Shown piece after piece: positions 1,987-22,672 of a DNA stretch of 22,680 nucleotides. The stretch lies in NCBI GenBank assembly GCA_945926565.1, contig CAMELY010000006.1, positions 1-22,680 of the forward strand, read 5' to 3'. This stretch comes from an uncultured Clostridia bacterium. GTDB taxonomy: Bacteria; Bacillota; Clostridia; Oscillospirales; Oscillospiraceae. A program made the position numbers and the translations under genes. The notes beneath the pieces were generated by a model. It worked only from the letters and a program-made list of their open reading frames with translations. It searched no databases and had not been told where the DNA came from. Positions within the stretch are counted from its first letter, which is position 1; each line of letters begins with the position of its first letter.

Positions 1987-4900
1987 TCAATAGTAGGTCC
2001 AGGACGAGGCGCCGGCCTTGGCACTGACGCCCCAGATGGAGGTGTCATAGAAGAACTTGCCTGTGACGGCGGGATCGGTGGGGTCAGATTTACGGGAAGA
2101 AATCTTATCCACCTGAGGCACACCGAAGGGCCCGGCATTGGAGGTGTTCTTGTAGAGCACCACCGGTATACGGTGATCCTCGCCATAGCCGTTTTTCGTA
2201 ATATCCTGAATCAGGTAGGCATAGATGCACTGCATCCGGATACAACCGCCGGTATTATTTCTGTTGCTGACCATGCTGTTGTAAGAGGAGGAGGAGAAGC
2301 TGTAGGGGCTCTTGGAGCCGAAATACAGGGCGGAGTGGAACCAGCTGTAGGTGCCGCAGATATAGGTGGCATACTGCTCAAAGCTTCCGGAGTCCAGCCA
2401 ACGCTGTCCGGCTCTTGCCTTCAGATAGGCGGACGAGGTGCCTTCAACATATTTCGTTTTGCTGGGATTGCCCACGCAGCGCACCGAGACCGCCGGGATG
2501 CAGTAGGAATCTGTGGCGCTGTCGTAAAGGTAAATTGTGACGTAGCTGGGATTGCTGTCATTGGTATTGATACAAAATACGATTCGGCATTTCAGATTCC
2601 GGTAGCTCTTGCCAAAGTAGGAGTACAGGTTGGTAACCAGCGCGCCGGTCTTGGTGTCAAAGTAATACTTATAGGTGCTGCCGTTGCGTTTGAGGTACTG
2701 CCAGCCCACCAGGCAGACACCGTCCTTGACGTAATAGGTATTCCCATTTTTCTTCACCCAGCCGCTGCCGCTCATGGTGATGGAGAAGGTCATGCCGTCC
2801 TCATAAGCACCGTAGGAAACGTGCTTCTTGCCGTCGACAGTGGTAGTCTTGTAGGCCTTGACCGTGTAGTAATAGGCGGTGTTCTTATTCTTGACGGAGG
2901 TATCCTTATAAGAGAGGACAGAGGCGTCGGTGGTGGTGGCCAGCCGTTCCCACGTTCCGCCGGAGGTCTTGCGATAGACCATGTAGCCGTCGGCGCCGGA
3001 GACCGCCTTCCATTTGACTGTAGTACCGCTGGAGCTGCACAGCACCGACTCCATAGCAGGGGCAGGCAAGTAGATGGCGTAGATACCCGTGGAATTGTAG
3101 TAGCTCAGCGAGGTCTTATCCGAGGCCACAGCACGGACGGTATAGAAGTAATTTGTTCCTGCAGAGAGCTTGCTGGAATCCACATAGGTTTCCGTGGCGC
3201 CGCTGGAGATCGTCGCAATCTGTTTCCAGCTGCTGCCCTCTGTCTTCCGGTAGACCCGGTAGCCGGCGGCGCTGGGCACCTTGGTCCAGGAGATCTTGAT
3301 ACCGGAGGTCGTGTTCTGAGACGCAGCATTCAGGACCGGAGCAGACAGGAAGATATACTTCTGGTAGACGAAGCCGCCCCAGTTGTTCTTCGTGTCAAGG
3401 CCCACCTTCTGAATATCACCAGTGCCGTAATAGGCCCGGACGGTATAGTTGCAGGTCGTGCCGTTGGCGACGGATTCGGTATCCACATAAGAGGCGGAGG
3501 TAGCGCCGGCCTTGAGGGAACTGGCAGATATCTTAGTCAGGGTGACCAAAGTATCGCCCACCTTCCGGAACACCCGGTAACCAGTGGCCTTGCTGTCCAG
3601 CTCCCAAGTAACCCGGGTGCCATTGGAGGCGGCGGCCACCGTGACTTTGACCGGTGCATGATAGACAGACGCGGCAGCGGGCGTATAGTAACCGCTGATA
3701 TGGTCCTTGTCCTTATAAATTGCCCGGACAGTGTAATAGTACGCGCCGTTGGCCGCAGCGGTCTTATCCAGATAGCTGTTCTTGCCGGCCCCGGTCAGTG
3801 TCGTCAGAGTCTTCCAGTTGCTGTCCGCCGTCTTCCGGTAGACAATGTAGCCGGTAGCCCCGGTCACCGCAGTCCATTTGACTGTCATACCGGTACCGCT
3901 GCTGTAGACATCGCCCAACTCCGGCGCAGCCAAGTAGAGCAGGGCCGCCGCCGTTTTATAGGGGCTCCACAGGTTGGTGGTATAGGTCTTGTTCTTGTCC
4001 ATCGCGGCTGTATCGCCGTAATAGGCCCGGACGGTGTAGGTATAGGTCTTGCCGCTGACCGCGGTTTTGTCCAGATAGGATGCAGTGGTACCCTTGGTGA
4101 TATTGGCAACAATTGTGTAGCTGGATTCGCCGCTGGCTTTTCGGAAGACCCGATAGCCGGTGGCCTCGGCATCCTTGCTCCAGGTCACCTTTACGCCGCC
4201 GGCGGCATTGGCCGACTTAACCACAGGGGTGGCGTGGTAAGCGATGCTCTTGGTGGCATCGCTGCGGAAATCGTAGTATACGCCCCCGATTCCATCGGCA
4301 TTAAAGGCCCGGACGGTGTAGAAGTAGTGCATACCCACCTCGGCCTTGGTATCCGTATAGGTGGTGACCGTGTTCTTCACCTCACCCAGGAAAGTCCACT
4401 TGGCCGTGCTGGCGTTGGCCGCCTGACGGTAGATCCGATAGGTGGAAGCGCCGGCCACTTTGCTCCAGGTCAGGCTGATGCCGGTGCCGGTGCTGTAGGC
4501 TTTTGTAATCTCAGGGGCGGCCAGATAGTAGACACTGGCGCTGGCCGTATAACCGCTCCACAGGTTGGTGGTATAGGTCTTGTTCTTGTCCATCGCGGCT
4601 GTATCGCCGTAATAGGCCCGGACGGTGTAGGTATAGCTCTTGCCGCTGGCTGCGGTTTTGTCCAGATAGGATGCAGTGGTGCCCTTGGTGATATTGGCAA
4701 CCGTTTTGTAGCTGGATTCGCCGCTGGCTTTTCGGAAGACCCGGTATCCGGTCGCGTCAGCATCCCGGTTCCAGGAAACCATCGGACCGCCGGCTGCGGA
4801 CTTCACCGTGACCTTGGGGATCGCCCGATAGGTATAGCTCACCACGCTGGTATCACCGGAGAGAGAGCCGTCAGCATAGACCGCACGCACCTGATAGAAA

Positions 4901-5886
4901 TAGGTTGTGCCCACATTTGCTGCAGTGGAATCTGTATAGGTGGTTGTGTCGGCATTCACCGTGCCGATGGGATCCCCCCAAGGCTGGCTGGCGTCAGTAC
5001 GGCGGTAAATCCGGTAGCTCTGAGCTCGATCCAGCTTCTCCCAGGTGAGTGTGGGGCTGTCGCCGGTGCTGCTTTTCTGGGCCACACCGATGATATGTAC
5101 CGCGGGTATCAAGCCGGACTCATAAGACAGGCCTTCATACGCACCGGTGTAGAGGCCGTTCTCTTTTCCCTCCTGATTGAAGGCAAAGAGATAGCTGGAA
5201 TGCACAGCGGCATCCGGATCCACAAAGACCTCCGGGGCAGTATACACCATCCGGCTCTCATCCTCCGGGGTCTGGCCGTCCTCCTGCGTGGGGGCGTCAG
5301 TCAGGCTCAGATAGTGATCAGAGAAGAGAAACAGAGCTTCTTCACTCTGCAGCACGCCCTTGTCGTAGTAGAAGAAGTAGGGATGCTCCAGCATCTTCTC
5401 CCGGTCTTCCTCATTGTAGTCGTAAAAGGCCACGACGCCGGTATATTGCTCCTCGGCAGTCTTGCCGTCGGCTTCTTTGCCGGAATCAGCATAGCCGGTG
5501 ATGTATACAACCAGCTTCTCCGGAGCCTGATAGTTGCCTTCGGCGTCCAGATAGGCCGCGTTTACCGGAGTGTTGGGGGTTTCTGACTGCTGAGGCTCCT
5601 GGCCAGCCGGCTGCTCCTGGGCGGCAGGCTGCTCCTGAGCGGCAGGCTGTTCCTGGGCGGCAGGCTGTTCCTGAGCGGCAGGCTGTTCCTCGCCCCCAGG
5701 CAGAACAGTGTCCTGACTGTCGTCAAATGGGCTCAGGGCTGTTGTGGTCTCAACCTGGCCGATATCAGCCGCGCTGCTGTCGGACTCCTGGCTTCCGGAG
5801 ACCTCCACGGCGGCTGCCGGGAGGGACAGCACCATGAGTACAGCCAGCAGCAGGCTGACAGAACGGGTGAAGAGGGGATGTTTCAC
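1987..5886 (-). CDS. secreted multi-FN3 protein with C-terminal L,D-transpeptidase (YkuD) domain
   Basis: 1,299 residues from a GTG at 5886. An upstream in-frame GTG at 5895 abuts the AAGGAAG ribosome site, so 5886, 8 nt from it, is the better start. Order of parts: signal peptide (residues 1 to about 28); Q/P/A-rich linker with five hexapeptides (67-96); a region of about 160 residues I do not recognise; eight fibronectin III-like units (about 262-1036), each with a W...ATGYRVFRK-type core and a YTVRA strand; an aromatic/Gly segment (1039 to about 1085) resembling choline/cell-wall-binding repeats; and a YkuD-like domain. The last is shown by WFHSALYFG (His1184) and TGGCIRM (Cys1215), matching H...S-x-G-C-[IV]-R. 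The usual His of the SHGC motif is Gly here. L,D-transpeptidases make 3-3 peptidoglycan crosslinks or anchor proteins to the wall. It is probably co-transcribed with tatD and the radical SAM gene. The exact substrate is unknown. Confidence 0.85.
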   Translation of the reverse strand: MKHPLFTRSVSLLLAVLMVLSLPAAAVEVSGSQESDSSAADIGQVETTTALSPFDDSQDTVLPGGEEQPAAQEQPAAQEQPAAQEQPAAQEQPAGQEPQQSETPNTPVNAAYLDAEGNYQAPEKLVVYITGYADSGKEADGKTAEEQYTGVVAFYDYNEEDREKMLEHPYFFYYDKGVLQSEEALFLFSDHYLSLTDAPTQEDGQTPEDESRMVYTAPEVFVDPDAAVHSSYLFAFNQEGKENGLYTGAYEGLSYESGLIPAVHIIGVAQKSSTGDSPTLTWEKLDRAQSYRIYRRTDASQPWGDPIGTVNADTTTYTDSTAANVGTTYFYQVRAVYADGSLSGDTSVVSYTYRAIPKVTVKSAAGGPMVSWNRDADATGYRVFRKASGESSYKTVANITKGTTASYLDKTAASGKSYTYTVRAYYGDTAAMDKNKTYTTNLWSGYTASASVYYLAAPEITKAYSTGTGISLTWSKVAGASTYRIYRQAANASTAKWTFLGEVKNTVTTYTDTKAEVGMHYFYTVRAFNADGIGGVYYDFRSDATKSIAYHATPVVKSANAAGGVKVTWSKDAEATGYRVFRKASGESSYTIVANITKGTTASYLDKTAVSGKTYTYTVRAYYGDTAAMDKNKTYTTNLWSPYKTAAALLYLAAPELGDVYSSGTGMTVKWTAVTGATGYIVYRKTADSNWKTLTTLTGAGKNSYLDKTAAANGAYYYTVRAIYKDKDHISGYYTPAAASVYHAPVKVTVAAASNGTRVTWELDSKATGYRVFRKVGDTLVTLTKISASSLKAGATSASYVDTESVANGTTCNYTVRAYYGTGDIQKVGLDTKNNWGGFVYQKYIFLSAPVLNAASQNTTSGIKISWTKVPSAAGYRVYRKTEGSSWKQIATISSGATETYVDSSKLSAGTNYFYTVRAVASDKTSLSYYNSTGIYAIYLPAPAMESVLCSSSGTTVKWKAVSGADGYMVYRKTSGGTWERLATTTDASVLSYKDTSVKNKNTAYYYTVKAYKTTTVDGKKHVSYGAYEDGMTFSITMSGSGWVKKNGNTYYVKDGVCLVGWQYLKRNGSTYKYYFDTKTGALVTNLYSYFGKSYRNLKCRIVFCINTNDSNPSYVTIYLYDSATDSYCIPAVSVRCVGNPSKTKYVEGTSSAYLKARAGQRWLDSGSFEQYATYICGTYSWFHSALYFGSKSPYSFSSSSYNSMVSNRNNTGGCIRMQCIYAYLIQDITKNGYGEDHRIPVVLYKNTSNAGPFGVPQVDKISSRKSDPTDPAVTGKFFYDTSIWGVSAKAGASSWTYY
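3964..4151 (-). repeat. in-gene direct repeat, copy A (FN3 unit)
   Basis: About 188 bp nearly identical to 4555-4742, offset exactly 591 bp (197 codons, in frame). It encodes the RVFRKASGESSY...NLWS core of one FN3 unit. The first ~80 bp are essentially identical between copies; later differences are scattered. Confidence 0.88.
4555..4742 (-). repeat. in-gene direct repeat, copy B (FN3 unit)
   Basis: Partner of 3964-4151. The spacing of two FN3 units suggests duplication or gene conversion of an A/B domain pair. Confidence 0.88.
5599..5688 (-). repeat. five 18-bp tandem repeats (EQPAAQ)
   Basis: Five consecutive 18-bp units encode EQPAAQ four times and EQPAGQ once (residues 67-96 of the FN3/L,D-transpeptidase protein), forming an extended Pro/Gln linker after the signal peptide. 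Units differ only at wobble positions and one codon. Tandem units of this size can change number by slippage without shifting the frame. Confidence 0.93.
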
Positions 5887-5965: not shown

Positions 5966-6571
5966 TTACCACTCAGTAGAATAGGTGCGAACCCGGTAGA
6001 CAGCGCCCAGGGCCCGGCAGATCCGGCCGCAGGCCTCGATCTCCTCCTGGGGCATGGTGTCCACCACCGTCATAATCACCTTGGGGACGTACTTGACCGC
6101 CTCCCGGGTGAAGTCCAGCATGGCCTGATAGCTCTCAATGCCGTATTTGCTCCGGCAGGTGGCCTGATAGTCCTCCGCCGTGGCCCGGTTGAGGGAGATA
6201 GAGAGAATGTCGAACTTCCCGGCAAAGAGGTGCGCTGTGGGCCTCCCGTGGATCAGGTCGCTGTGGCCGTTGGTGTCCATCCGGATGGGAATGGAGGAGT
6301 ACCCCTTCACCTGCTCCGCCACCCAGAGGATGTCCTCCAGGCGGTAGGTTGGCTCCCCGTAGCCGCAGAAGACCAGCTCCTGATATTGGGTCAGATCCCG
6401 CTTTTGGATGTCCGCCAGGATCTCCTCCCGGGTGGGCTCCCGCTCCAGCCACAGGGGGCCGGAGTCTCCCACCCGGTCGCCGGTGGTGCGCAGGCAGAAG
6501 GTACAGCTGCAGTCGCAGCGGTTGGTGGTGTTGACATAGAGATTCTTGCCATAGACGTAGGTGATGGTCAA
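5966..6571 (-). CDS. TatD-linked radical SAM protein
   Basis: 201 residues. The N-terminus has the [4Fe-4S]/SAM motif CxxxCxxC (Cys19, Cys23, Cys26, in the segment NRCDCSCTFC). The glycine-containing strand is FCGYGEPTYR, followed by a DTNGH segment and a conserved ISLNRATAEDYQ-type region. Size, motif context and position directly after tatD match the family known as TatD-associated radical SAM proteins, whose reaction is not established. The start is a TTG at 6571, 19 nt after the tatD stop, behind a modest GAGG about 10 nt upstream. No ATG fits, because the next in-frame Met lies beyond the Fe-S motif. Co-transcription with tatD is very likely. Confidence 0.86.
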   Translation of the reverse strand: MTITYVYGKNLYVNTTNRCDCSCTFCLRTTGDRVGDSGPLWLEREPTREEILADIQKRDLTQYQELVFCGYGEPTYRLEDILWVAEQVKGYSSIPIRMDTNGHSDLIHGRPTAHLFAGKFDILSISLNRATAEDYQATCRSKYGIESYQAMLDFTREAVKYVPKVIMTVVDTMPQEEIEACGRICRALGAVYRVRTYSTEW

Positions 6572-6590
6572 GATACAGTCGCCTCGTTTC

Positions 6591-7379
6591 TCAAGAGGAT
6601 TGGGGAATGCGGAAGAACCGGCGGCCGTTTTCTGTTGTGATCCGGGCGGTCTCTTCCAGGGACAGGCCCTTGATCTCCGCCAGCTTTTGGGCCACCTGAT
6701 ACACTCGGAGGGAGGAGTTCCGGCGGAACTTTTTGTCCTCCGGGGTGCGGGGATAGGGAATCATATAGGGGGAGTCGGTCTCAATCATGATCTTCTCCAG
6801 GGAGATGGCGGCAGCCACCTCCACAGGCCGCCTGGCGTTGGGGAAGGTGAGGGCTCCGGTGAAGGAGATCATCCAGCCCCGGTCAATCAGCTCTCTGGCC
6901 TGCTCCACACCGCCGGAGTAGCAGTGGAAGACCCCGCGCACGTCGGGATAGGCCCGGACAATCTCCATGGAGTCGGCGTGGGCCTCCCGGTCATGGAAGA
7001 TCACCGGCAGATCCAGCGCCCGGGCCAGCTCAAATTGGCGGCAGAGGCCCGCCTTCTGCATCTCCCGGGGGGCGTAGTCCTCCCAGTAGTAGTCCAGGCC
7101 GATCTCGCCGATGGCCCGCACCTTGGGATCCTCCGCCAACCGGCGCAGCTGCTCCAGGGCGTCATCATTCAGTTTTTCAATGTCCGACGGGTGAAAGCCC
7201 ACAGCGGCATAGATATGCGGAAACCGGCGGGCGCAGTCCAGGGCTTTTTGGGAGCTGTCCAGCTCACAGCCGGGGATCAGAGCCAGCTCCACCCCCGCCT
7301 GGGGCAGGCCGGAGAGCAGTTCCGCCCGATCCCGGTCAAAGGCCGGGGAATCATAGTGGGCATGGGTATCAAAATACAT
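6591..7379 (-). CDS. tatD: TatD family metal-dependent hydrolase (DNase)
   Basis: 262 residues from the ATG at 7379, the usual family length. The frame is open upstream to 7472, but that region contains the promoter, and the family begins at MYFDTHAHYD. Metal ligands of the TIM-barrel amidohydrolase fold are visible: HAH near the N-terminus, Glu in AIGEIGLDYY, His in IFHDREAH, His in FHCYSG and Asp in ETDSPY. TatD enzymes are Mg-dependent 3'-5' exonucleases or deoxyribonucleases, cytoplasmic, implicated in DNA repair and turnover and D-Tyr-tRNA quality control. The ribosome site is weak (GGAT close to the start). It is the first gene of a minus-strand operon and is divergent from the amidase gene. 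Confidence 0.94.
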   Translation of the reverse strand: MYFDTHAHYDSPAFDRDRAELLSGLPQAGVELALIPGCELDSSQKALDCARRFPHIYAAVGFHPSDIEKLNDDALEQLRRLAEDPKVRAIGEIGLDYYWEDYAPREMQKAGLCRQFELARALDLPVIFHDREAHADSMEIVRAYPDVRGVFHCYSGGVEQARELIDRGWMISFTGALTFPNARRPVEVAAAISLEKIMIETDSPYMIPYPRTPEDKKFRRNSSLRVYQVAQKLAEIKGLSLEETARITTENGRRFFRIPQSS

Positions 7380-14382: not shown

Positions 14383-14411
14383 TTGACAAGGGTTCTGAGG
14401 CATGTTACAAT
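14383..14411 (+). promoter_or_regulatory. consensus sigma-A promoter of the surface-glycan operon
   Basis: Perfect TTGACA (14383-14388), 17-nt spacer and TACAAT (14406-14411). It lies about 79 nt before the first gene and is the only strong promoter I see up to the terminator at 22631. Confidence 0.9.
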
Positions 14412-14489
14412 GATAAACTGTAATAATGTGGAGATTTCCGCCCTTTGACGCCGACGGAACAGCTCTGTTTTGGAAGGGAGTGGGACAAT

Positions 14490-15758
14490 ATGGAGCACAA
14501 TGCCCTGCTGCTGGCCGCCCTCCGGGCCCATCTGGCAGCCGTACCTCTGGAGGCGGAGACCGGCCCGGTCTCCCCAGAGGAATGGCTCCGCCTGTTTCGT
14601 CTTGCCCAGGAGCACCATGTGCTGCCCATGGTCTACGAGACGGTGCGCACCCTCCCCGCCTTTCAGGAGAGCGGCCAGGCCCTGATCCCCGGCATCCGCC
14701 GGGAGGTCTTTCAGGCGGTGGCCGCCCAGACCCAGCGCACCCAGCAGTTTCTGGCGGTCTGTCAGGGGCTGCGGGCTGCGAGTGTCAAGGCTGTGGTGGT
14801 CAAGGGCATTCACTGCCGCGCCCTCTACCCCATGCCGGATCACCGGGTCTCCATGGACGAGGACGTGCTGGTGGCCCCGGAGCAGTATGAGGCCTGTCAC
14901 CAGGCGCTGACCGGGCTGGGCCTGACGCCGGCCAATCCGGAGGAGGATCGCGAGGCCGCCTTTGAGGTGACCTATGTGAATGCCTCCCGCACCCTCTGTC
15001 TGGAGATCCACAAATCCCTCTTTTCGGATGAGTCCCAGGCCTATGGAACGCTGAACCGGTTCTTTGACGGGGCGATGGATCGGGCGGCAGAGCTGGAGGT
15101 GCAGGGCCAGCCGGTCTGGTCTCTCTGCCCCCACGATCACCTGCTCTATCTCATTTGCCACGCCTTCAAGCACTTTCTCCACGGGGGCTTCGGTATCCGG
15201 CAGGTCTGCGATATCGGCCTCTGCGCCCAGAGATATGGGGATCAGGTGGACTGGAGCCGCCTGTATGACCAGTGCCGGGCGGAGCGGATGGAGCAGTTCG
15301 CCGCCGCCCTCTTTGCCATCGGGAAGCAGCAGCTGGGCCTTCGGTTGACCCTCCCCGCCCAGTGGCAGGCGCTCTGCCGGGAGGTCAATCCCGGCCCCAT
15401 GCTGGCCGATCTGCTCTCCGGCGGCGTCTACGGCGGGGCGGACATGAGCCGCAAGCACAGCAGCAATATCACGCTCTCCGCCGTCAGCGACCAGAAGGCG
15501 GGAAAAACAGGGAAGGGCTCCCTGCTGCGGACGGTGTTTCTCCCTCGGTCGGCTATGGCCGGCAAATACCCCTATCTGAACCGGTGGCCGGTGCTGCTGC
15601 CGGTGGCCTGGGGCCAGCGCATTTTCCACTACCTCCGGGAGAACCGGAATCAGAGCGTAAGCGGCGCCGCCGCCGAGAGTATCCGGCTGGGCCGGGAGCG
15701 GGTGGAGCTGCTGCGCCAGTACGGCATCTTAGACGGGAAGGACAACTCCCATGATTGA
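14490..15758 (+). CDS. NTP_transf_5-like nucleotidyltransferase
   Basis: 422 residues from the ATG at 14490, behind GGGAG. A TTG at 14445 would add 15 residues but has no ribosome site. The middle shows the minimal nucleotidyltransferase pattern: VVVKGI (Lys105, Gly106), then YPMPDHRVSMDEDVLV with the metal-binding Asp123-x-Asp125. The 'KG...YP.p..R...D.D' layout is typical of the uncharacterised nucleotidyltransferase family PF14907. These occur in surface-polysaccharide and some peptide-modification clusters; the transferred group and acceptor are unknown. The C-terminal third is basic and aromatic with no domain I recognise. It is the first gene of the operon, overlapping the next by 8 nt. 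Confidence 0.78.
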   Translation: MEHNALLLAALRAHLAAVPLEAETGPVSPEEWLRLFRLAQEHHVLPMVYETVRTLPAFQESGQALIPGIRREVFQAVAAQTQRTQQFLAVCQGLRAASVKAVVVKGIHCRALYPMPDHRVSMDEDVLVAPEQYEACHQALTGLGLTPANPEEDREAAFEVTYVNASRTLCLEIHKSLFSDESQAYGTLNRFFDGAMDRAAELEVQGQPVWSLCPHDHLLYLICHAFKHFLHGGFGIRQVCDIGLCAQRYGDQVDWSRLYDQCRAERMEQFAAALFAIGKQQLGLRLTLPAQWQALCREVNPGPMLADLLSGGVYGGADMSRKHSSNITLSAVSDQKAGKTGKGSLLRTVFLPRSAMAGKYPYLNRWPVLLPVAWGQRIFHYLRENRNQSVSGAAAESIRLGRERVELLRQYGILDGKDNSHD

Positions 15759-16518
15759 TTTACACGCCCATATTCTCCCCGGCATCGACGACGGCGCCCA
15801 GTCCCTGGAGATGGCCCTGGAGATGGCCCGGATCGCCTTGGCCGCCGGCGTCCGGCAGATGGCCGCCACCCCCCACTGCAACCTGCCGGACAGTTCCCGT
15901 GCCAACTATGACGGGCCGGAGCTGCGCCGGCAGCTCAATGACCTGCGCAAGGCGCTGGAGCAGGAAAACCTGCCCCTGGAGCTGTATCCCGGGGCGGAGG
16001 TGTTTGCCGATGAGGAGCTGCCCCGTCTGGTGCGCAGCCGACGTCTGACATCCCTCAACGACGGCCGGTATCTGCTGGTGGAGTTTGGCTTTGAGGAGGA
16101 TCCGGATTTCGTCACCTTTATTTTGGAGATGCTGCTGGAGGAGGGCTACACCCCCCTCATCGCCCATCCGGAGCGCTACGGCTTTGTCATCCGCAATCCG
16201 GAGCTGGCCTACCGGTTTGTCTCCATGGGCTGCTGCCTCCAGCTCAACCGGGGCAGCCTGACAGGCCGATTCGGTCCCCGGCCGGAGCGCACCGCCTGGG
16301 CCCTGGTGGAGCATCAGCTGGCGGCCTGCGTGGCCAGCGACTGCCACCGGGCGGAATTTCGCACCCCCCACCTGGCCGACGCCTGGGAGGTGCTGGAGGA
16401 GGCCTACGGCCCGGCCTGCCCCCGGCTGCTGCTGGAGGAGAATCCCCGGCGCATTCTGGACAGCCGGCCGGTGACCGGCCTGCGGCCCTTTGGATTCCGG
16501 GGCCGGCGTGGCTTTTGA
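15751..16518 (+). CDS. cpsB: CpsB/YwqE-type PHP-fold protein-tyrosine phosphatase
   Basis: 255 residues. Metal-binding PHP motifs: DLHAHILPGIDDGA (His5, His7, Asp13/14), TPH (His42), GAEVF (Glu83), AHPERY (His139) and SDCHR (Asp197, His199). These match manganese-dependent phosphotyrosine phosphatases of the CpsB/CapC/YwqE family, which dephosphorylate BY-kinases and so control capsule length and amount. The ATG overlaps the previous gene by 8 nt. Two BY-kinases downstream in the same operon are the obvious substrates. The histidinol-phosphatase branch of the PHP fold is less likely because of the context and the LPGIDDGA motif. Confidence 0.93.
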   Translation: MIDLHAHILPGIDDGAQSLEMALEMARIALAAGVRQMAATPHCNLPDSSRANYDGPELRRQLNDLRKALEQENLPLELYPGAEVFADEELPRLVRSRRLTSLNDGRYLLVEFGFEEDPDFVTFILEMLLEEGYTPLIAHPERYGFVIRNPELAYRFVSMGCCLQLNRGSLTGRFGPRPERTAWALVEHQLAACVASDCHRAEFRTPHLADAWEVLEEAYGPACPRLLLEENPRRILDSRPVTGLRPFGFRGRRGF

Positions 16519-16548
16519 ACCGATTCATGATAGCAGACGGGAGCGACT

Positions 16549-17412
16549 ATGAAGAGATTTCGTGTATTATGGATATTTGTGCTGGCGGTTGTGACGGCTG
16601 TCTTTGTCCTGTATCAGGGCGTGCAGGCCCTGAGCGCCCAGGACGGCGGCCCTCAGTTTACAGTGGACGAAGGGGCGCTGGAGGTCAGCGTCCAGGACGG
16701 TTCCGAGGCGCTGCTCCGGGGAATCACCGCCCGGGACGGGGAAGATGGGGACGTGACTGACAGCATCCTGGTGGAAAAGCTGTCCGACTTCTATGACGGC
16801 AACCGGCGCCTGGTCACCTATGCCGCCTTTGACTCGGACGACAATGTGGCCAAGGCCAGCCGGGAGATTGTCTACACCGACTACACCTCTCCCCGCTTCT
16901 CCCTCACCCACGCCCTGCGCTGGAAGGCCGGAGAAAGCCTCAACCTGACCCAGCTGGTCCAGGCCAGCGACGCTTTGGACGGCGACCTCACCGGAAAAGT
17001 GACCGTGCGCACCGAGACCACCATCTCCAGCCGCACTGCCGGCGTGTATCCCATCTCCTTCTCGGTGACCAACAGCGCCGGAGACACCCAGACGCTGGAG
17101 ACCCAGCTGGAGATCTATGATCCCCAAGTGAACGAGGCCTCCCTGGAGCTCACCGATTACCTGGTCTACTGGGAGGGGGAGGACATCGACTACCGCTCCT
17201 ATCTCCAGAGCGTCACGGCGGGCGGCGTCAAATACAGCTTCCAGCCGGGCAGCCAGACCGGCACCTCCGCCGGCGGAGGCTCTCTGAGCCGTTCAGACAT
17301 TTCAATCCGCTCCCAGCTGGACACCAGCCAGGCCGGCGTCTATCCGGTCTATCTCACCTATCAGGACGGCACCTATCAGGGCACCACCCTGCTGCTGGTG
17401 GTTGTGGAATAA
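16549..17412 (+). CDS. membrane-anchored protein with bacterial Ig-like domains
   Basis: 287 residues. A single N-terminal membrane segment or uncleaved signal (about 7-24) is followed by an extracytoplasmic part of probably three beta-sandwich units. The first (about 36-110) has ARDGEDGDVTDSI and the second (about 117-190) has ASDALDGDLTGKVTV, the DG-x-DGD-x-T pattern of DUF5011/HYR-like Ig-fold domains. The third (about 197-287) is more divergent. No catalytic motif is visible. It lies 30 nt after cpsB and 9 nt before the first Wzz/BY-kinase, with GGGAG as ribosome site. It may bind glycan or the extracytoplasmic loop of the Wzz proteins, but this is inference from position only. Confidence 0.75.
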   Translation: MKRFRVLWIFVLAVVTAVFVLYQGVQALSAQDGGPQFTVDEGALEVSVQDGSEALLRGITARDGEDGDVTDSILVEKLSDFYDGNRRLVTYAAFDSDDNVAKASREIVYTDYTSPRFSLTHALRWKAGESLNLTQLVQASDALDGDLTGKVTVRTETTISSRTAGVYPISFSVTNSAGDTQTLETQLEIYDPQVNEASLELTDYLVYWEGEDIDYRSYLQSVTAGGVKYSFQPGSQTGTSAGGGSLSRSDISIRSQLDTSQAGVYPVYLTYQDGTYQGTTLLLVVVE

Positions 17413-17421
17413 GGAGGCACT

Positions 17422-18915
17422 ATGGCAGACTATCATACCGATCCCGTCCAGGCGCCTCTGGGCCAGCTGGACCTGCCCACCCTCTGCCGGGATCTGGTCC
17501 GGCACTGGTGGATGATCCTCTCCGCCGGTCTGGTGGGGATGATGGGAGCTTACCTGGTGCTTCAGCTGCTCTTTGTGCCGGTGTATACCAGCAGCGCTAC
17601 CCTCATCGTCTCCGCCCGGGGCGGCAGCGGCGCCGCCTCCGACCTCTCGGCCACCAACACCATGACCGAGACCTTCTCCCAGGTGCTGGACAGCAGCATT
17701 TTGAAGAAAAAGGTGCAGGAGCAGCTGGGGCTGGATCATCTCCCCGGGGAGATCACCACCCAGGTGATCCCGGACACCAACCTGCTCACCGTCCAGGTCT
17801 CCGCCCGCCACCCCAGAGAGGCCTACGAGGTGCTGCGGGGTGTGCTGGACAACTATGACCAGGTCACCAGCTACATGATGAAAAACGTGGTGCTCCGGGA
17901 GCTGGACCCGCCCACGGTGCCCACCGCCCCCTCCAACGCACCCAATCAGCGCTCGGTGCTGAAAAACGCCTTTTTGGCGGGCGCGGTGCTGATGGCCCTG
18001 ACCCTGGCCGCCCTGTCCTATTTCCGGGACACGGTGAAAAACCAGGGAGACGTGGCCGCCAAGCTGGACACCAGGCTCTATCTCACCGTCTACCACGAGC
18101 AGAAGTACAAGACCCTCTCCAGCCGGCTGAAAAAGGCCAAGCAGTCCATTTTGATCACCGATCCCACCTCCAGCTTTCTCTTTGTGGAGACCTTTAAAAA
18201 GCTGCGCACCAAGCTGATGTACCAGGCGGAAAAAAAGCAGTGCCGGGTGCTGCTGGTGACCAGCGTGGCGGAAAACGAGGGCAAGAGCACGGTGGCCGCC
18301 AATGTGGCCCTGGCCCTGTCCCAGAAGATGGAGCGGGTGGTGCTCATCGACGGAGACCTGCGCCGGCCCGCCCAGCACAAGCTGCTGTCCAAGCCGGTGC
18401 CCCCCTCCGGAGAGCTGTCCTCCTTCCTGGAGGGCAAAATTCCGGCGGACAATCTGCTGCTCCGGGACCGGAACTCTCCCCTCAACCTGATTCTCAACAC
18501 GAAAAGCTGCCCCAACTCCACCGAGCTGGTCTCCGGCGAACGGATGCGGGGTCTGATTGACGCTGTCCGGAACATGAGCGACTATGTGGTGGTGGACACC
18601 CCGCCGCTGACCCTCATGGCCGATGCTGAGGCCCTGGCAGAGTACGCCGACGTGGCCCTGCTGGTGGTACGCCAGGATCTCTCCCTGGCCCGGCAGATCA
18701 ATGACGCCGTGGATATTCTGGAGTCCGGCCACGCCCAGCTGCTGGGCTGCGTCCTCAACGACGTGCGCACCGGCCCCTTCTCCGGCCGGCACGGCGGCTA
18801 CGGCTATGGATATGGCTACGGCTATGGCTACGGGTATGGCTATGGCGGATACGGAAAATACGGAAAGGGGTATGGAGCCTACGATGGAAACCGGCAAAAA
18901 TCCGCGGATCGTTGA
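17422..18915 (+). CDS. Wzz-BY-kinase fusion 1 (capsule chain-length regulator/tyrosine kinase) with Gly-Tyr tail
   Basis: 497 residues. Membrane segments at about 31-52 and 183-201 bracket an extracytoplasmic Wzz-type domain. A cytoplasmic BY-kinase domain follows: Walker A SVAENEGKST (281-290, Lys288), Walker A' VVLIDGD (Asp310, Asp312) and Walker B VVVDTPP (Asp392). The P-loop has AENEGKST where the family usually has PGEGKST. The C-terminal tail (459-487) alternates Gly and Tyr with 12 tyrosines, a large version of the autophosphorylated Tyr cluster. BY-kinases drive polymerisation and export of capsule/exopolysaccharide by cycles of phosphorylation and dephosphorylation, here presumably with the CpsB-type phosphatase two genes upstream. 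In many Firmicutes the Wzz and kinase parts are separate proteins; here they are fused. The start follows AAGGAGG. The end overlaps the next gene by 32 nt. Confidence 0.93.
   Translation: MADYHTDPVQAPLGQLDLPTLCRDLVRHWWMILSAGLVGMMGAYLVLQLLFVPVYTSSATLIVSARGGSGAASDLSATNTMTETFSQVLDSSILKKKVQEQLGLDHLPGEITTQVIPDTNLLTVQVSARHPREAYEVLRGVLDNYDQVTSYMMKNVVLRELDPPTVPTAPSNAPNQRSVLKNAFLAGAVLMALTLAALSYFRDTVKNQGDVAAKLDTRLYLTVYHEQKYKTLSSRLKKAKQSILITDPTSSFLFVETFKKLRTKLMYQAEKKQCRVLLVTSVAENEGKSTVAANVALALSQKMERVVLIDGDLRRPAQHKLLSKPVPPSGELSSFLEGKIPADNLLLRDRNSPLNLILNTKSCPNSTELVSGERMRGLIDAVRNMSDYVVVDTPPLTLMADAEALAEYADVALLVVRQDLSLARQINDAVDILESGHAQLLGCVLNDVRTGPFSGRHGGYGYGYGYGYGYGYGYGGYGKYGKGYGAYDGNRQKSADR
18796..18882 (+). 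repeat. Gly-Tyr hexanucleotide repeat tract
   Basis: Runs of GGCTAT/GGCTAC-type 6-bp units encode the Gly-Tyr tail of BY-kinase 1 (residues 459-487), irregular toward the 3' end where Lys and Ala enter. Unit gain or loss by slippage would change the number of tyrosines while keeping the frame. Confidence 0.88.
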
Positions 18916-19387
18916 CGCCCAGGTCTACATCCCCATGCTCCAAAGCGTCATGGAGGAGGGCAAGGTGGTGCCCCTCATCATCACCGGCTCCAGCATGACC
19001 CCCTTCCTCGCCCCCGGCCGGGACCGGATCTTTCTGAAAAAGGCGGAGGGGCCCCTGAAGCGGGGGGACATGGCCTTTTTCCGCCGGTCCAACGGCCAGT
19101 ATGTCTTCCACCGGGTCCGGCGGGTGCAGGGCGATCAATACTATTTTCTGGGCGACGCTCAGACCGAGATTGAGGGCCCCGTCCCACGCAGCGCCATCTT
19201 CGCTCTGGCCGTCCAGGTGGAGCGGAAGGGGGAGCTTCTGACCCCGGACTCCTTCTGGTGGAAATTCTTCCGGGACGTCTGGCCCCTGCTGCGGCCGGTG
19301 CGGCGGCCCATCTGCCGGCTCTATGCCGCTCTCACCGCCCGCCGGCGCTCCGGCAGTTCGACCCATCACAGAGGAGGTACCCCATGA
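18884..19387 (+). CDS. S24/S26 family (signal peptidase I-like) protein
   Basis: 167 residues from the ATG at 18884, inside the end of BY-kinase 1 in another frame. GGAG at 18874-18877 is a plausible ribosome site; an ATG at 18872 is an alternative. The motif ITGSSMTPFLAPG gives the catalytic Ser37. LKRGDMAFFRR and YVFHRV (His76), then FLGDAQTE, follow the order of S26 peptidases of the Ser/His (SipW/archaeal-eukaryal) type. There is no N-terminal membrane anchor; only the C-terminal third (FWWKFFRDVWPLL, then basic residues) looks membrane-associated. It therefore differs from ordinary signal peptidases, and a proteolytic target cannot be named. It overlaps BY-kinase 2 by 4 nt (ATGA). Confidence 0.8.
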   Translation: METGKNPRIVDAQVYIPMLQSVMEEGKVVPLIITGSSMTPFLAPGRDRIFLKKAEGPLKRGDMAFFRRSNGQYVFHRVRRVQGDQYYFLGDAQTEIEGPVPRSAIFALAVQVERKGELLTPDSFWWKFFRDVWPLLRPVRRPICRLYAALTARRRSGSSTHHRGGTP

Positions 19388-20877
19388 GCGAGCAAACCAA
19401 CGCCCGGACAGAGGCTCAGGAGCCGGAGCTGATCGACCTGACCCGCATTCTGGACGGGATGTGGAAGGCCCTGCGCCACGATTTCTGGATTGTCATTCTG
19501 CTCACCCTTTTGGGTGCGGCCCTGTTTTTTGTCCGGGCCAAAATCAACTATGTGCCCCAGTACCTGTCTTCAGCCACCTTTACCGTCTCCGCCGACAGCC
19601 AGAGCATCTACAGCTCCAGCAGTTACTACAACAACGTCACCGCCAGCCAGCTGGAGAGCACCTTCCCCTATCTGCTCACCAGCGGCAGCCTGTCCCGGGT
19701 GGTGGCCGCCGACCTGGGGGTGGAGCAGCTAAACGGCAGCATTACCGCCTCGGTGATGCCCAACACCAACCTGTTCACCATCGAGGTGCGCTCCGGCGAC
19801 CCCCAAGCTGCCAGCGACATTCTCAACTCGGTGATTGAGAACTATCCGGTGGTGGCCGAACAGGTGGTGGGCCGCACAGTGCTGGAGCTGCTGGACAACA
19901 CCGGAGTGGCGGACCAGCCCTACAATACCCCCAATTATACCCGCACCGCCCTGAAGGGGGGCCTGATGGGCCTGGCGGCAGGCATTGCCTTTCTCTTCCT
20001 GGTGGCCTTTACCCGGCGCACCATCCAGCGGGAGGACGATTTCAAGCAGTTCCTCCACGCTGAGTGTCTGGCGGTTCTGCCCCAGGTCAGCCTGAAAAAG
20101 CGCAGCCGGGCCCAGCGGCAGGACATCTCGATCTGCAATCCCCACATCGCCGCCCCCTTCCTGGAGTCCATGCGCATTCTGCGCACCCGCCTGGAGCGGC
20201 TGGCCGGGGCCAGCGGCAGCAAGGTGCTGCTGGTGACCAGCGCCGCCCCCGGCGAGGGCAAGAGCACCGTGGCCGCCAATATCGCCATGGCCCTGGCCAT
20301 GAACGGCAAAAAGGTGCTACTCATGGACTGCGATATCCGCAACCCCTCGGTGGGAGATATGCTGGGCCTCCGGCCCGGCAAGGGGGTCTACGAGCTGCTC
20401 AAGGGCGAGACCACGCTGGAGGAGGTCTTCCGGTATGACAAGGCCCACGGCCTCTATGTGCTCCCCGGCGGCAAGCCCTGTGCCAACGCCTCGGAGATTC
20501 TGGACGCCCCCCAGATGGCCCAGCTGCTGTCCAGCGTCCGGGAGCTGATGGATTATGTCATCCTGGACACCGCTCCGGTGGGCATGCTCACCGACACCGC
20601 CGTTCTGGCCGAGCTGGCGGACGGAGCCCTCTTTGTGGTCAAGCAGGACTACGCCCCCATCCCCCATCTGGTGGAGGCGGCGGAGCAGCTGGCAGAGAGC
20701 CGGATTCCCCTGCTGGGCTGCATCCTCAACGGCGCCACCGCCACTCTGGGCAGCTACGGCCAGAGCTATTACAGCAGCTATTATCACTACAGCCGCTACG
20801 GCGGCTACGGCGGCCGGGAAGAGACGCCGGCCCAGTCCAAATCCAGGGTTAAATCCTCCAGCCGGCAGGGCAGCTGA
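19384..20877 (+). CDS. Wzz-BY-kinase fusion 2
   Basis: 497 residues from the ATG at 19384, behind AGAGGAGG; the longer open frame upstream is the S26 gene's region. Membrane segments at about 34-51 and 190-209 enclose a Wzz domain. The kinase part has a standard Walker A AAPGEGKST (287-295, Lys293), Walker A' VLLMDCD (Asp315, Asp317) and Walker B VILDTAP (Asp395). The tail (458-475) carries eight tyrosines in a Ser/Tyr/Gly cluster, different in style from the Gly-Tyr run of kinase 1. Residues 244-280 contain the conserved linker with EsmRiLRTRL that contacts the next subunit in BY-kinase rings. Same length and layout as kinase 1 but clearly diverged, so an old duplication or independent acquisition. 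Confidence 0.93.
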   Translation: MSEQTNARTEAQEPELIDLTRILDGMWKALRHDFWIVILLTLLGAALFFVRAKINYVPQYLSSATFTVSADSQSIYSSSSYYNNVTASQLESTFPYLLTSGSLSRVVAADLGVEQLNGSITASVMPNTNLFTIEVRSGDPQAASDILNSVIENYPVVAEQVVGRTVLELLDNTGVADQPYNTPNYTRTALKGGLMGLAAGIAFLFLVAFTRRTIQREDDFKQFLHAECLAVLPQVSLKKRSRAQRQDISICNPHIAAPFLESMRILRTRLERLAGASGSKVLLVTSAAPGEGKSTVAANIAMALAMNGKKVLLMDCDIRNPSVGDMLGLRPGKGVYELLKGETTLEEVFRYDKAHGLYVLPGGKPCANASEILDAPQMAQLLSSVRELMDYVILDTAPVGMLTDTAVLAELADGALFVVKQDYAPIPHLVEAAEQLAESRIPLLGCILNGATATLGSYGQSYYSSYYHYSRYGGYGGREETPAQSKSRVKSSSRQGS

Positions 20878-20919
20878 ACGCTCTGCCGCTGAATCAAAGG
20901 GAAATATAAGGAGACTATT

Positions 20920-22017
20920 ATGTACGACTATCTGATTGTGGGCGCAGGCCTCTATGGCGCCGTCTTTGCCCAGGAGGCGAAGAAAGCGGGCAAGACCTGC
21001 CTGGTCATCGACAAGCGGGATCACATCGCCGGCAACATCTACACCAAGGAGGTGGAGGGCATCGCTGTCCACCAGTACGGCGCCCATATCTTCCACACCA
21101 ACAACAAAGAGGTTTGGAATTATGTGAACCAATTTGCCGAGTTCAACCGGTACACCAACAGCCCGGTGGCCAACTACCACGGGGAGCTGTACAACCTGCC
21201 CTTCAACATGAACACCTTCAACAAGATGTGGGGGGTGGTCACCCCCGCCCAGGCCAAGGCCAAGATTGAGGAGCAGAAGCGGGAGGCCAACATCACCGAG
21301 CCGAAAAACCTGGAGGAGCAGGCCATCAGCCTGGCCGGCAGGGACATCTATGAGAAGCTGGTTCGGGGCTACACCGAGAAGCAGTGGGGTCGCCCCTGCA
21401 CGGAGCTGCCCTCCTTTATCATCCAGCGGCTCCCCCTCCGGTTCACCTTCGACAACAATTACTTCAACGCCCTCTATCAGGGCATCCCTGTGGAGGGCTA
21501 CACCGCTCTGGTGGCCAATCTCCTGGAGGGCACCGAGGTGCGCCTGGGGGTGGACTACCTGGCGGACAAGGAGCATCTGGATGCGTTGGCTAAGTCGGTG
21601 GTCTATACCGGCCCCATTGACGCCTATTTCGGCTTCCGGCTGGGCTATCTGGAGTACCGCAGCGTCCGGTTTGAGACCGAGTTGCTGGACACGGACAACT
21701 TCCAGGGCAACGCCGTGGTCAACTACACCGACCGGGAGACCCCCTACACCCGCATCATCGAGCACAAGCACTTTGTCTTCGGCACCCAGCCCAAGACGGT
21801 GATCAGCCGGGAGTACAGCTCCGAGTGGAAGCCGGGAGACGAGCCCTACTACCCGGTCAACGACGCCAAAAACGGCGCCCTGTACCGGCAGTACAAGGCC
21901 CTGGCCGACGCCGAGTCCAACGTCATCTTCGGCGGCCGCCTGGGCGAGTACAAGTACTACGACATGGACAGGGTGATTGAGAGCGCTCTGTCCAAGGCCC
22001 GGGAGGTACTGGGGTGA
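20920..22017 (+). CDS. glf: UDP-galactopyranose mutase
   Basis: 365 residues. The N-terminal FAD-binding motif is VGAGLYGAVFA with the acidic end at VIDKRDHIAGN. The family segments YGAHIFHTNN, NLPFNMNTF, YTEKQWG and PVNDAKN are all present, as is the C-terminal GGRLGEYKYYDMD. The flavoenzyme interconverts UDP-galactopyranose and UDP-galactofuranose, the donor for galactofuranose residues in capsules, LPS or cell-wall galactans. The ATG follows AAGGAG. It lies 42 nt after BY-kinase 2 and overlaps the next gene by 4 nt. Its presence suggests the controlled glycan contains galactofuranose, although no galactofuranosyltransferase is in the window. Confidence 0.97.
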   Translation: MYDYLIVGAGLYGAVFAQEAKKAGKTCLVIDKRDHIAGNIYTKEVEGIAVHQYGAHIFHTNNKEVWNYVNQFAEFNRYTNSPVANYHGELYNLPFNMNTFNKMWGVVTPAQAKAKIEEQKREANITEPKNLEEQAISLAGRDIYEKLVRGYTEKQWGRPCTELPSFIIQRLPLRFTFDNNYFNALYQGIPVEGYTALVANLLEGTEVRLGVDYLADKEHLDALAKSVVYTGPIDAYFGFRLGYLEYRSVRFETELLDTDNFQGNAVVNYTDRETPYTRIIEHKHFVFGTQPKTVISREYSSEWKPGDEPYYPVNDAKNGALYRQYKALADAESNVIFGGRLGEYKYYDMDRVIESALSKAREVLG

Positions 22018-22487
22018 GCACCCTGCCCCAGGGGCTGACTTGGATACCCCTCCGGGAGGCGCCCGAGCTGGCAGCAGAGGCCGCCGCCTGGTTCTCCTCC
22101 AAGTGGGGGATCCCCCTGGAGGCCTATCAGGAGAGCATGGCCGACTGCCTGGCGCATCCGGACGGAGTGCCCCAGTGGTATCTGGTACGCACCGAAGCCG
22201 GGGAGATCGCCGGCGGCCTGGGGCTGATTGAGAACGACTTCCACCCCCGGCGCGATCTGCGGCCCAATGTCTGCGCCGTCTTTGTGGAGCCGGCCTGGCG
22301 GAAGCGGGGGATTGCCCATTTTCTGCTGGATCAGGTGCGCCGGGACGCGGGACAGCTGGGAGAAAAGCAGCTTTACCTGCTCACCGACCATACGGATTTT
22401 TACGAGCGCTGCGGCTGGAGCTATCTCTGTACCATCCAGGGGGATGACGGGGACAGCAGCCGGGTGTATACCGCGGAGGCATTGTAA
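22014..22487 (+). CDS. GNAT family N-acetyltransferase
   Basis: 157 residues from a GTG at 22014 in a GTGA overlap with the glf stop, behind GGGAGG. GNAT motif A is visible as CAVFVEPAWRKRGIAHFLLD, with the acetyl-CoA pyrophosphate loop R96-x-x-G99-x-A101. DFYERCGW near the C-terminus is the usual motif B end. The acetyl acceptor cannot be told from sequence. Context suggests acetylation of a sugar or surface component, but small GNATs often sit in operons without a direct link. It is the last gene of the operon. Confidence 0.85.
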   Translation: MSTLPQGLTWIPLREAPELAAEAAAWFSSKWGIPLEAYQESMADCLAHPDGVPQWYLVRTEAGEIAGGLGLIENDFHPRRDLRPNVCAVFVEPAWRKRGIAHFLLDQVRRDAGQLGEKQLYLLTDHTDFYERCGWSYLCTIQGDDGDSSRVYTAEAL

Positions 22488-22528
22488 AGTTTGTTTTCTG
22501 GTAAAAGGAAGCTTGCGCCGGGGGCGAC

Positions 22529-22572
22529 TCCCTCAGTCGCCTTACGGCGACAGCTCCCTCGGAGAGGGAGCC
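22529..22572. repeat. short palindromic dispersed repeat (REP-like)
   Basis: Two adjacent hairpins: GTCGCC-TTAC-GGCGAC (22536-22551) and GCTCCCTC-GGA-GAGGGAGC (22553-22571), preceded by CTCCCTCA, which can also pair with GAGGGAG. I recall closely similar elements, many copies per genome, between genes of Faecalibacterium and Oscillospiraceae, but copy number cannot be shown from one window. It lies between the last gene of the operon and its terminator. Confidence 0.7.
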
Positions 22573-22630
22573 TTGGGGCGCATTTGACGTAACCGCTTAT
22601 CTTTACTTTGAGTCGCTTTTTGGTCAATAA

Positions 22631-22672
22631 AACTGCCGGGTGCGTTCCATCGGACGCACCCGGCAGTTTTTT
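22631..22672 (+). terminator. terminator of the surface-glycan operon
   Basis: Perfect 15-bp stem AACTGCCGGGTGCGT/ACGCACCCGGCAGTT (22631-22645, 22654-22668) with an 8-nt loop. Six T (22667-22672) start at the foot of the stem. It lies 144 nt after the GNAT stop. Apart from the dispersed repeat, 22488-22630 shows no gene. Confidence 0.92.

Follow-up and report, generated by a model that had tools for sequence, protein, structure and literature searches.

On balance, we think that the operon described here is the leader-cleaving, nucleoside triphosphate (NTP)/sugar-tailoring, and phosphotyrosine-control half of a split system for a ribosomally synthesized and post-translationally modified peptide (RiPP), similar to the systems for linear polyphosphorylated peptides (LPPs), and that its other half lies on a second contig, C5, of the same genome. 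The operon occupies 14490-22487 of the window, that is, of the whole stretch of DNA analyzed, which is contig C6 (22680 bases) of a metagenome bin that we call G000 (1.44 Mb, 202 contigs, 76.5% complete). Its eight genes, all on one strand with close-spaced or overlapping ends, encode a PF14907 nucleotidyltransferase-like protein, a CpsB-type tyrosine phosphatase, a membrane protein with immunoglobulin (Ig)-like domains (IgTM), two fused Wzz/bacterial tyrosine kinases (BY-kinases 1 and 2), a serine peptidase of the S26 type between the kinases, UDP-galactopyranose mutase (Glf), and a GNAT-family acetyltransferase (Table 1).

LPPs are a RiPP family of Bacillota (Nat Commun 2026, PMC13381572). 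Their core set comprises a SipW-like leader peptidase (LppS), an NTP transferase (LppN), an HprK-like kinase, a discrete RiPP recognition element (RRE), and an MsbA-like exporter, located inside capsule loci, and the leader consensus is YxxPxVLxHQxIxFETxxS (PMC13381572). The S26 protein of the operon looks like LppS, a comparison that draws on homology, the invariant residues S37, H76, and D91, and a LexA/signal-peptidase-like model. Its Ser-His spacing of 39 is the same as that of S29/H68 in LppS, and its His-Asp spacing is 15 versus 25 by the LppS numbering in PMC13381572. The model (pLDDT 86.6) best matches LexA C-domains (E 3.7e-04) and type I signal peptidases (E 1.9e-03), with TM-scores below 0.45 by query length. 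By eye, sequence and model have no N-terminal hydrophobic helix, and helix 124-157 is charged; because no membrane anchor was seen, a secretory signal peptidase (Signal peptidase I) was rejected. In a tree, the window S26 groups with those of four relatives in a single clade (100/100) amid S26 proteins that mostly have LPP-type or exporter neighbors. The PF14907 protein, which keeps K105-G106 and D123-E124-D125, resembles LppN; that LppN may be a PF14907 protein is our reading of “uncharacterized NTP transferase” in PMC13381572. The two proteins had been set down as unexplained parts in an earlier note on this DNA; both look like RiPP enzymes, of the LppS and LppN types. Searches of solved structures with the PF14907 protein, the S26 profile, and the HprK-like protein described below were uninformative.

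Contig C5 carries LPP-type partner genes: a 135-aa precursor-like protein, a radical SAM/SPASM enzyme, an HprK-like protein on the opposite strand, an MsbA-like exporter, a PqqD protein, and a second Ig-like-BY-kinase-BY-kinase set. In the matches found in G000, this PqqD protein (PF05402, 7.2e-17; solved relatives TbiB1 and 9x8z, “PqqD family protein”) is the only one of its kind, as are the S26 and PF14907 proteins of C6. The HprK-like family keeps H132, GK-T, and D172. The exporter-PqqD-Ig-BY-kinase-BY-kinase part of the C5 block recurs in two relatives (G007:C35 and G008:C65), on contigs that stop in or just past the exporter gene. Three relatives with one S26 gene each, G007, G008, and G016, have 3, 4, and 4 PqqD loci; nine of these 11 contain both HprK-like and radical SAM genes (the two without them are the cut ones), and eight contain a precursor (E <= 0.01). 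The idea of the earlier note that the operon is a self-contained cassette was therefore rejected, since the partner genes of S26 and PF14907 sit on C5. Its suspicion of a non-glycan target or of a partner encoded elsewhere has fared better: there are LPP-type partner genes on C5, and there is no match in G000 to PF02397, the family taken here as the start of capsule synthesis.

The precursors provide a further line of evidence. All candidates came from a search of 121 loci with a hidden Markov model (HMM) of the N-terminal leader, which yielded 43 candidates, 42 of them distinct, with E <= 0.01 and mostly 80-148 aa long. The YxxP motif cannot count as independent evidence, since the HMM derives from that region; the C-terminal serine can, and it ends 39 of the 42 distinct precursors. 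The corresponding figures are 8 of 227 for other short genes and 96 of 1391 for called genes. A radical SAM gene lies within 3 kb of 41 of the 42, and an HprK-like gene within 2 kb of 31. The C5 precursor, for which no Pfam or NCBIfam family was matched, has 182 homologues. All 120 of those listed end in Ser; in this family (L005:3270-3677, P0241-P0360), the listed members also have Cys at four positions (95-100%) and near-invariant His and Trp residues.

The surroundings of S26 genes also speak for an LPP-like system. In 23 of 30 short loci (30 of the 31 S26 matches), S26 relatives directly adjoin HprK-, PqqD-, exporter-, or radical SAM-like genes; the seven without such neighbors are the window, four CpsB-S26-Glf units, one BY-kinase-S26 locus, and one other. 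The remaining match (G013:C3, locus L218) adjoins PqqD-, HprK-like, and PF14907 genes. An ABC exporter carries a fused S26-like domain at its N-terminus in six genomes (G015, G020, G028, G002, G001, and G029; loci L055, L057, L059, L061, L062, and L063); all six fusions retain Ser, His, and Asp, and four have both PqqD- and HprK-like genes next to them. In L051 and L058, an HprK-like and a PqqD-like domain share one frame (411 and 381 aa). Pfam confirms the exporter in both S26-exporter fusions tested, and PqqD in the one HprK-PqqD fusion that was scanned. Across 59 genomes, and with chance values that assume 2.1-Mb genomes and independent places, pairs within 10 kb were observed 6 times versus about 0.25 expected for S26-PF14907, 7 versus 0.35 for S26-CpsB, and 4 versus 0.15 for S26-IgTM. 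These counts leave out two CpsB rows (a piece with stops in G017 and a 55-residue piece in G015), the G014 PF14907 row, which is under the cut-off, IgTM rows weaker than E 2.5e-18, and the second half of a split gene in G008.

CpsB keeps H5, H7, D13, E83, H139, D197, and H199 as in its family, positions which we take to be the PHP metal site. Judged by sequence, both kinases have the features expected of BY-kinases: a Wzz region, the conserved GK-T, D-D, and D-P residues, presumably Walker-type motifs, and a Tyr-rich tail, with 12 and 8 tyrosines in the last 50 residues. The AlphaFold2 model of IgTM has a pLDDT of 92; its Foldseek search was uninformative, the best rows being chitinase, cadherin, and S-layer repeats with low TM-scores.

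From the observed gene content, homologies, co-locations, S26-exporter fusions in relatives, and serine ends, we suggest the following scheme for the G000 organism. The PqqD-type recognition element would hold the 135-aa C5 precursor via its YxxP leader, and the core, with its Cys residues, would next be modified by the radical SAM/SPASM enzyme. The HprK-like kinase would then phosphorylate a serine, with the conserved one at the C-terminus as the likeliest target, and the PF14907 protein of the operon could add a hexose or a nucleotide to that phosphate. Subsequently, S26 would remove the leader and the MsbA-like exporter of C5 would secrete the product. A membrane complex of the Ig-like protein and BY-kinases 1 and 2, reset by CpsB, may pace assembly or export, and Glf may supply UDP-galactofuranose for sugar decoration. 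The addition to the phosphate, the pacing by the kinases, and the role of Glf are the most tentative parts of the scheme.

In relatives, the operon's genes are distributed differently. The closest named relatives of IgTM, at 84% and 90% identity, come from “Candidatus Onthomonas” metagenome-assembled genomes (Oscillospiraceae). An Ig-like-BY-kinase 1-BY-kinase 2 unit (unit A; 52-67% identical) occurs in G007, G016, and G008 without other operon genes on the same stretch; in G008:C24 (L069, L109), the Ig-like gene and the BY-kinase 1 gene are each called as two adjacent frames, through frameshifts or assembly errors. A CpsB-S26-Glf unit (66-80% identical) lies on a different contig in G007, G008, G016, and G024, the last of which has no strong IgTM match. 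Where the 3' side of Glf is visible (G007, G008, and G016), an opposite-strand gene follows, after a gap in G007, and no glycosyltransferases; in G007 and G008, the adjoining opposite-strand gene is asparagine-synthase-like by eye (L084:12864-14705, L083:6826-8667). In the window, the two units are joined; PF14907 precedes them, S26 lies between the kinases, and GNAT comes last. Another combination is seen in G026:C31, from the same genus, where CpsB-Ig-BY-kinase-BY-kinase-S26 faces HprK-radical SAM-precursor-PqqD. Glf and PF14907 as a fixed pair were rejected on G007, G008, and G024. The operon is thus a mosaic that recurs, not a cassette of fixed content. The earlier note would take a recurring block of the same genes as support for a distinct module; the gene sets do recur in Clostridia, with two separate units instead of one block in near relatives.

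For a wider sample, we used 80 named loci with an IgTM relative, kept from 221 and nearly all Clostridia by title; a scan of the genome contigs with the single IgTM protein gave 64 stretches, none of them confirmed, and was uninformative. The 80 loci are not independent: at least six are from G007, G008, and G016 (L105, L106, L109, L133, L138, and L144), and some genomes give two. The counts come from six-frame searches, with our own HMMs built from clusters of the same loci, which may miss divergent glycosyltransferases. BY-kinases are present in 80/80, Ig-BY-kinase-BY-kinase in a row in 72/80, and CpsB in 49/80. Exporter genes follow with 35/80, PqqD with 25/80, HprK-like and radical SAM genes with 24/80 each (together in 22 loci), S26 with 23/80, precursors with 22/80, and PF14907 with 17/80. 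At least one LPP-type gene is found in 44/80 loci and four or five of the five core families in 10; the direct order S26-CpsB-Ig-BY-kinase appears 8 times, and an Anaerostipes locus (L164) holds precursor, radical SAM, exporter, CpsB, and kinase genes together. Any glycosyltransferase, phosphoglycosyltransferase (PGT), or EpsG gene was detected in 26/80. Among the 34 loci longer than 20 kb, 21 have an LPP-type gene, 10 a PGT or EpsG gene, and 14 any glycosyltransferase-type gene. As a partial control, 62 of 85 unlabelled genes in LPP-positive, glycosyltransferase-negative loci were scanned with Pfam, and no glycosyltransferase, flippase, or polymerase was among the 25 listed of 259 families. 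A protein of about 260 aa, X16, adjoins HprK-like/radical SAM genes in 11/80 loci (e.g., L204, L107, L130, L167, L168, and L171); the one member scanned matched no Pfam family.

We also counted glycan genes genome-wide. PF02397 is present in 36 of the 59 genomes and had no match in G000, G003, G005, G007, G008, G016, G019, G024, and G026, which are IgTM or S26-Glf genomes. The absence of glycan genes from G000 was rejected as proof by itself because the bin is 76.5% complete; for this reason, near-complete relatives were examined too, and PF02397 was not found in six such genomes. G003, also without a PF02397 match, is 97% complete. PF00534/PF00535 counts are 0/1 in G000, 1/4 in G003, 1/4 in G024, and 3/12 in G016. 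PF01943 is matched twice in G000 (frames of 550 and 564 aa) and twice each in G003, G007, G008, and G024, and PF00953 once in G000 and twice in each of eight relatives. Because the second PF00953 protein makes a TagO/WecA-type start possible in those eight relatives, we do not claim that there is no glycan: what we find is that no PF02397-started capsule was detected. Candidates for a non-Wzy glycan pathway in relatives are four frames of 1069-1081 aa (G007:C10, G010:C45, G016:C82, and G016:C37), each of which carries two or three PF00535 domains.

The main rival of the split LPP-like system, which we consider rather unlikely, is that CpsB, the Ig-like protein, and the two BY-kinases are ordinary regulators of a TagO-started, ABC-exported, or other non-Wzy glycan encoded elsewhere; Glf would then make galactofuranose, and S26 and PF14907 would be mere neighbors of convenience. 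Glf is, after all, a glycan enzyme, and three PF00535 domains occur in one 1069-1081-aa frame in G007, G010, and G016. Other observations in favor of this rival at the same time weigh against a peptide role. Thus, G010, G032, G035, and G044 have a strong IgTM match together with PF02397; the second PF00953 protein of the eight near relatives is probably TagO/WecA-type, with which a glycan could start without PF02397; and PF02397-like or EpsG-like genes are found in 19/80 IgTM loci, with the kinase core directly preceding PGT, GT4, or EpsG-like genes, for example, in L115 and L147 and, with S26 in addition, in L151 and L182. The suggestion that the block is part of an ordinary capsule operon may consequently apply to the kinase core in those 19 loci, 10 of which also hold LPP-type genes; it does not apply in the near relatives examined. 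On the other side, G000, at its 76.5% completeness, shows no PF02397 or PF00534 and one PF00535 and one PF00953 protein, G003 lacks PF02397 and has four PF00535 and one PF00534, and the co-location of S26 with CpsB is far above chance. Further points against a split LPP-like system lie in the peptide genes. In the window itself, searches gave no match to a precursor, a recognition element, an HprK-like kinase, or an MsbA-like exporter, and 36/80 IgTM loci have no S26, PqqD, HprK-like, PF14907, or precursor gene on the stretch covered. In the C5 precursor, YEAPAV provides the YxxP motif, but the FETxxS with which the published leader consensus closes is absent, and the HprK-like label is weak (TIGR04249 3.0e-04, TIGR04352 0.048, no Pfam match). 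The CpsB-S26-Glf units of G007, G008, and G024 occur in genomes without any PF14907 match, and the S26 part of the exporter fusions was matched by the window-protein search and our own HMM, not by Pfam. In the published system, deletion of lppN left the detectable products unchanged, and phosphate is carried by S3 of the core instead of by the final residue (PMC13381572). Finally, the link between phosphotyrosine and the peptide is one that we infer.

Two other explanations were weighed. The operon could be a secondary, recent rearrangement in which Ig-BY-kinase-BY-kinase and CpsB-S26-Glf were fused with a stray PF14907 and GNAT gene without functional unity, as the separate units in relatives, where S26 is not between the kinases, and the single S26 clade shared with four relatives would allow. 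We regard this as improbable, given the overlapping starts and stops and the single promoter/terminator pair; moreover, relatives of S26 (95% identity) and IgTM (88% identity) both come from a 4994-base contig, maybe the same one, which suggests that a sister species has the arrangement too. The cassette of the earlier note, read as an independent phosphotyrosine switch for unrelated processes of the cell in which the protease and nucleotidyltransferase serve as regulators, seems to us even less probable: unit A does stand alone in G007 and G016, but the S26 and PF14907 families are tied to LPP-like clusters (PMC13381572).

The split LPP-like system that we favor differs in part from the systems it recalls. 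With the lpp cluster of Paenibacillus alginolyticus it shares LppS-, HprK-, RRE-, and MsbA-type genes, a putative LppN-type gene, a YxxP leader, and a capsule-gene setting; unlike there, the G000 genes are split over two contigs, with RRE, HprK-like, exporter, and precursor genes on C5 instead of C6, a radical SAM/SPASM gene beside the precursor, pairing with Ig-like/BY-kinase/BY-kinase and Glf, S26-exporter fusions in relatives, and precursors that end in Ser. The main text of PMC13381572 has no use of “radical SAM” or “tyrosine kinase.” A C-terminal Ser and a nucleotidyltransferase recall paeninodin, in which the kinase PadeK targets a conserved C-terminal Ser, and pseudomycoidin, in which PsmN, annotated as a nucleotidyltransferase, is required for hexoses on phosphoserine; unlike the peptides proposed here, both are lasso peptides (PMC9266682). 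The SynChlorMet cassette, compared by family names (TIGR04249 ScmC, TIGR04250 ScmE), likewise combines radical SAM/SPASM, ScmC-like, and PqqD-like proteins, but the matches are far under the curated cut-offs, and the genes described here are also linked to an exporter and BY-kinases. The present precursors are presumably larger than lasso precursors. In Firmicutes, capsule and exopolysaccharide production is controlled by CpsB-CpsC-CpsD. The operon resembles this system in combining a CpsB phosphatase with Wzz/BY-kinases and differs from it in that there are two kinases, each fused to a Wzz region, together with a membrane protein with Ig-like domains, and that no Wzx, Wzy, or PGT gene is found within the operon.

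LPPs and phosphorylated lasso peptides often lie beside capsule loci, with roles that their discoverers call unknown (PMC13381572), and among the matches listed in the open-licence PMC literature, no paper linking BY-kinases to RiPPs was found. A broader idea, which we hold to be doubtful, is that a ribosomal peptide has taken over the BY-kinase/CpsB machine in gut Clostridia for the ordered maturation, glycosylation, or export of Ser-phosphorylated, radical SAM-modified peptides, some hosts being without a PF02397-initiated capsule and some having S26 built into the exporter. From the observed association, CpsB/BY-kinase pairs gain a candidate non-capsule client. Genomes such as G000, with peptide genes, BY-kinases, and CpsB but no detected PF02397-started capsule, would separate peptide from capsule roles and open the former to testing. 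The S26-exporter fusions, if they work as drawn, are a possible serine-peptidase counterpart, by analogy, of the C39 peptidase-exporters, and a Ser-ended precursor family (that of the C5 precursor) is now linked to a radical SAM enzyme.

Table 1. Features of the operon in the window, with the matches that support them.
Feature	Position	Strand	Basis
Sigma-70-type promoter	14383..14411	+	TTGACA-17-TACAAT with TG, 11/12 matches
PF14907 nucleotidyltransferase-like protein (LppN/PsmN-like), 422 aa	14490..15758	+	PF14907 1.2e-50
CpsB/CapC PHP-type tyrosine phosphatase	15751..16518	+	PF19567 1.4e-56
IgTM, Ig-like beta domains (DUF5011-type) after a single N-terminal helix, taken by eye as a membrane helix	16549..17412	+	PF16403
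Wzz/BY-kinase 1, fused, Tyr-rich tail	17422..18915	+	TIGR01007 over cut-off, PF02706
S26, SipW/signal-peptidase-like serine peptidase, LppS-like leader peptidase candidate	18884..19387	+	PF00717 3.7e-05; TIGR02228 2.6e-05, under its cut-off
Wzz/BY-kinase 2	19384..20877	+	TIGR01007 over cut-off, PF02706
Glf, UDP-galactopyranose mutase	20920..22017	+	TIGR00031 1.3e-126, over cut-off
GNAT-family acetyltransferase	22014..22487	+	PF00583 1.3e-09
Strong intrinsic terminator	22629..22670	+	19-pair stem

The gene list, the tight packing, and the single promoter and terminator given by the earlier note agree with our family matches, overlaps, and shuffle comparison. Starts and stops overlap at PF14907/CpsB, BY-kinase 1/S26, S26/BY-kinase 2, and Glf/GNAT. 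Promoter-like sites with at least 9/12 matches number 3 versus 1.7 +/- 1.1 in shuffles, and terminator-like sites 11 versus 6.2 +/- 3.0, the one in Table 1 having the longest stem. Family scans of the window proteins, including six minus-strand genes, matched no glycosyltransferase, flippase, or polymerase family, as the note had said of the block, and no PGT; the search for polymerase families covered the window. Rfam and tRNA scans gave nothing informative. The contig end falls 10 bases past the terminator, and sequence beyond 22680 is not visible. A MetNIQ-type transporter and, in divergent orientation, secG lie upstream of the operon. The minus strand also encodes a protein of 1299 aa (1987-5886) that contains an fn3 domain and matches GH85_C, and a short radical SAM protein adjoining a TatD-type DNase (5966-7379). 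Between GNAT and the terminator lies a GC-rich hairpin-like stretch (22514-22575) that, in our view, resembles an interspersed Clostridia repeat; its core pattern was found in C6 and in one further locus among the 228 examined.

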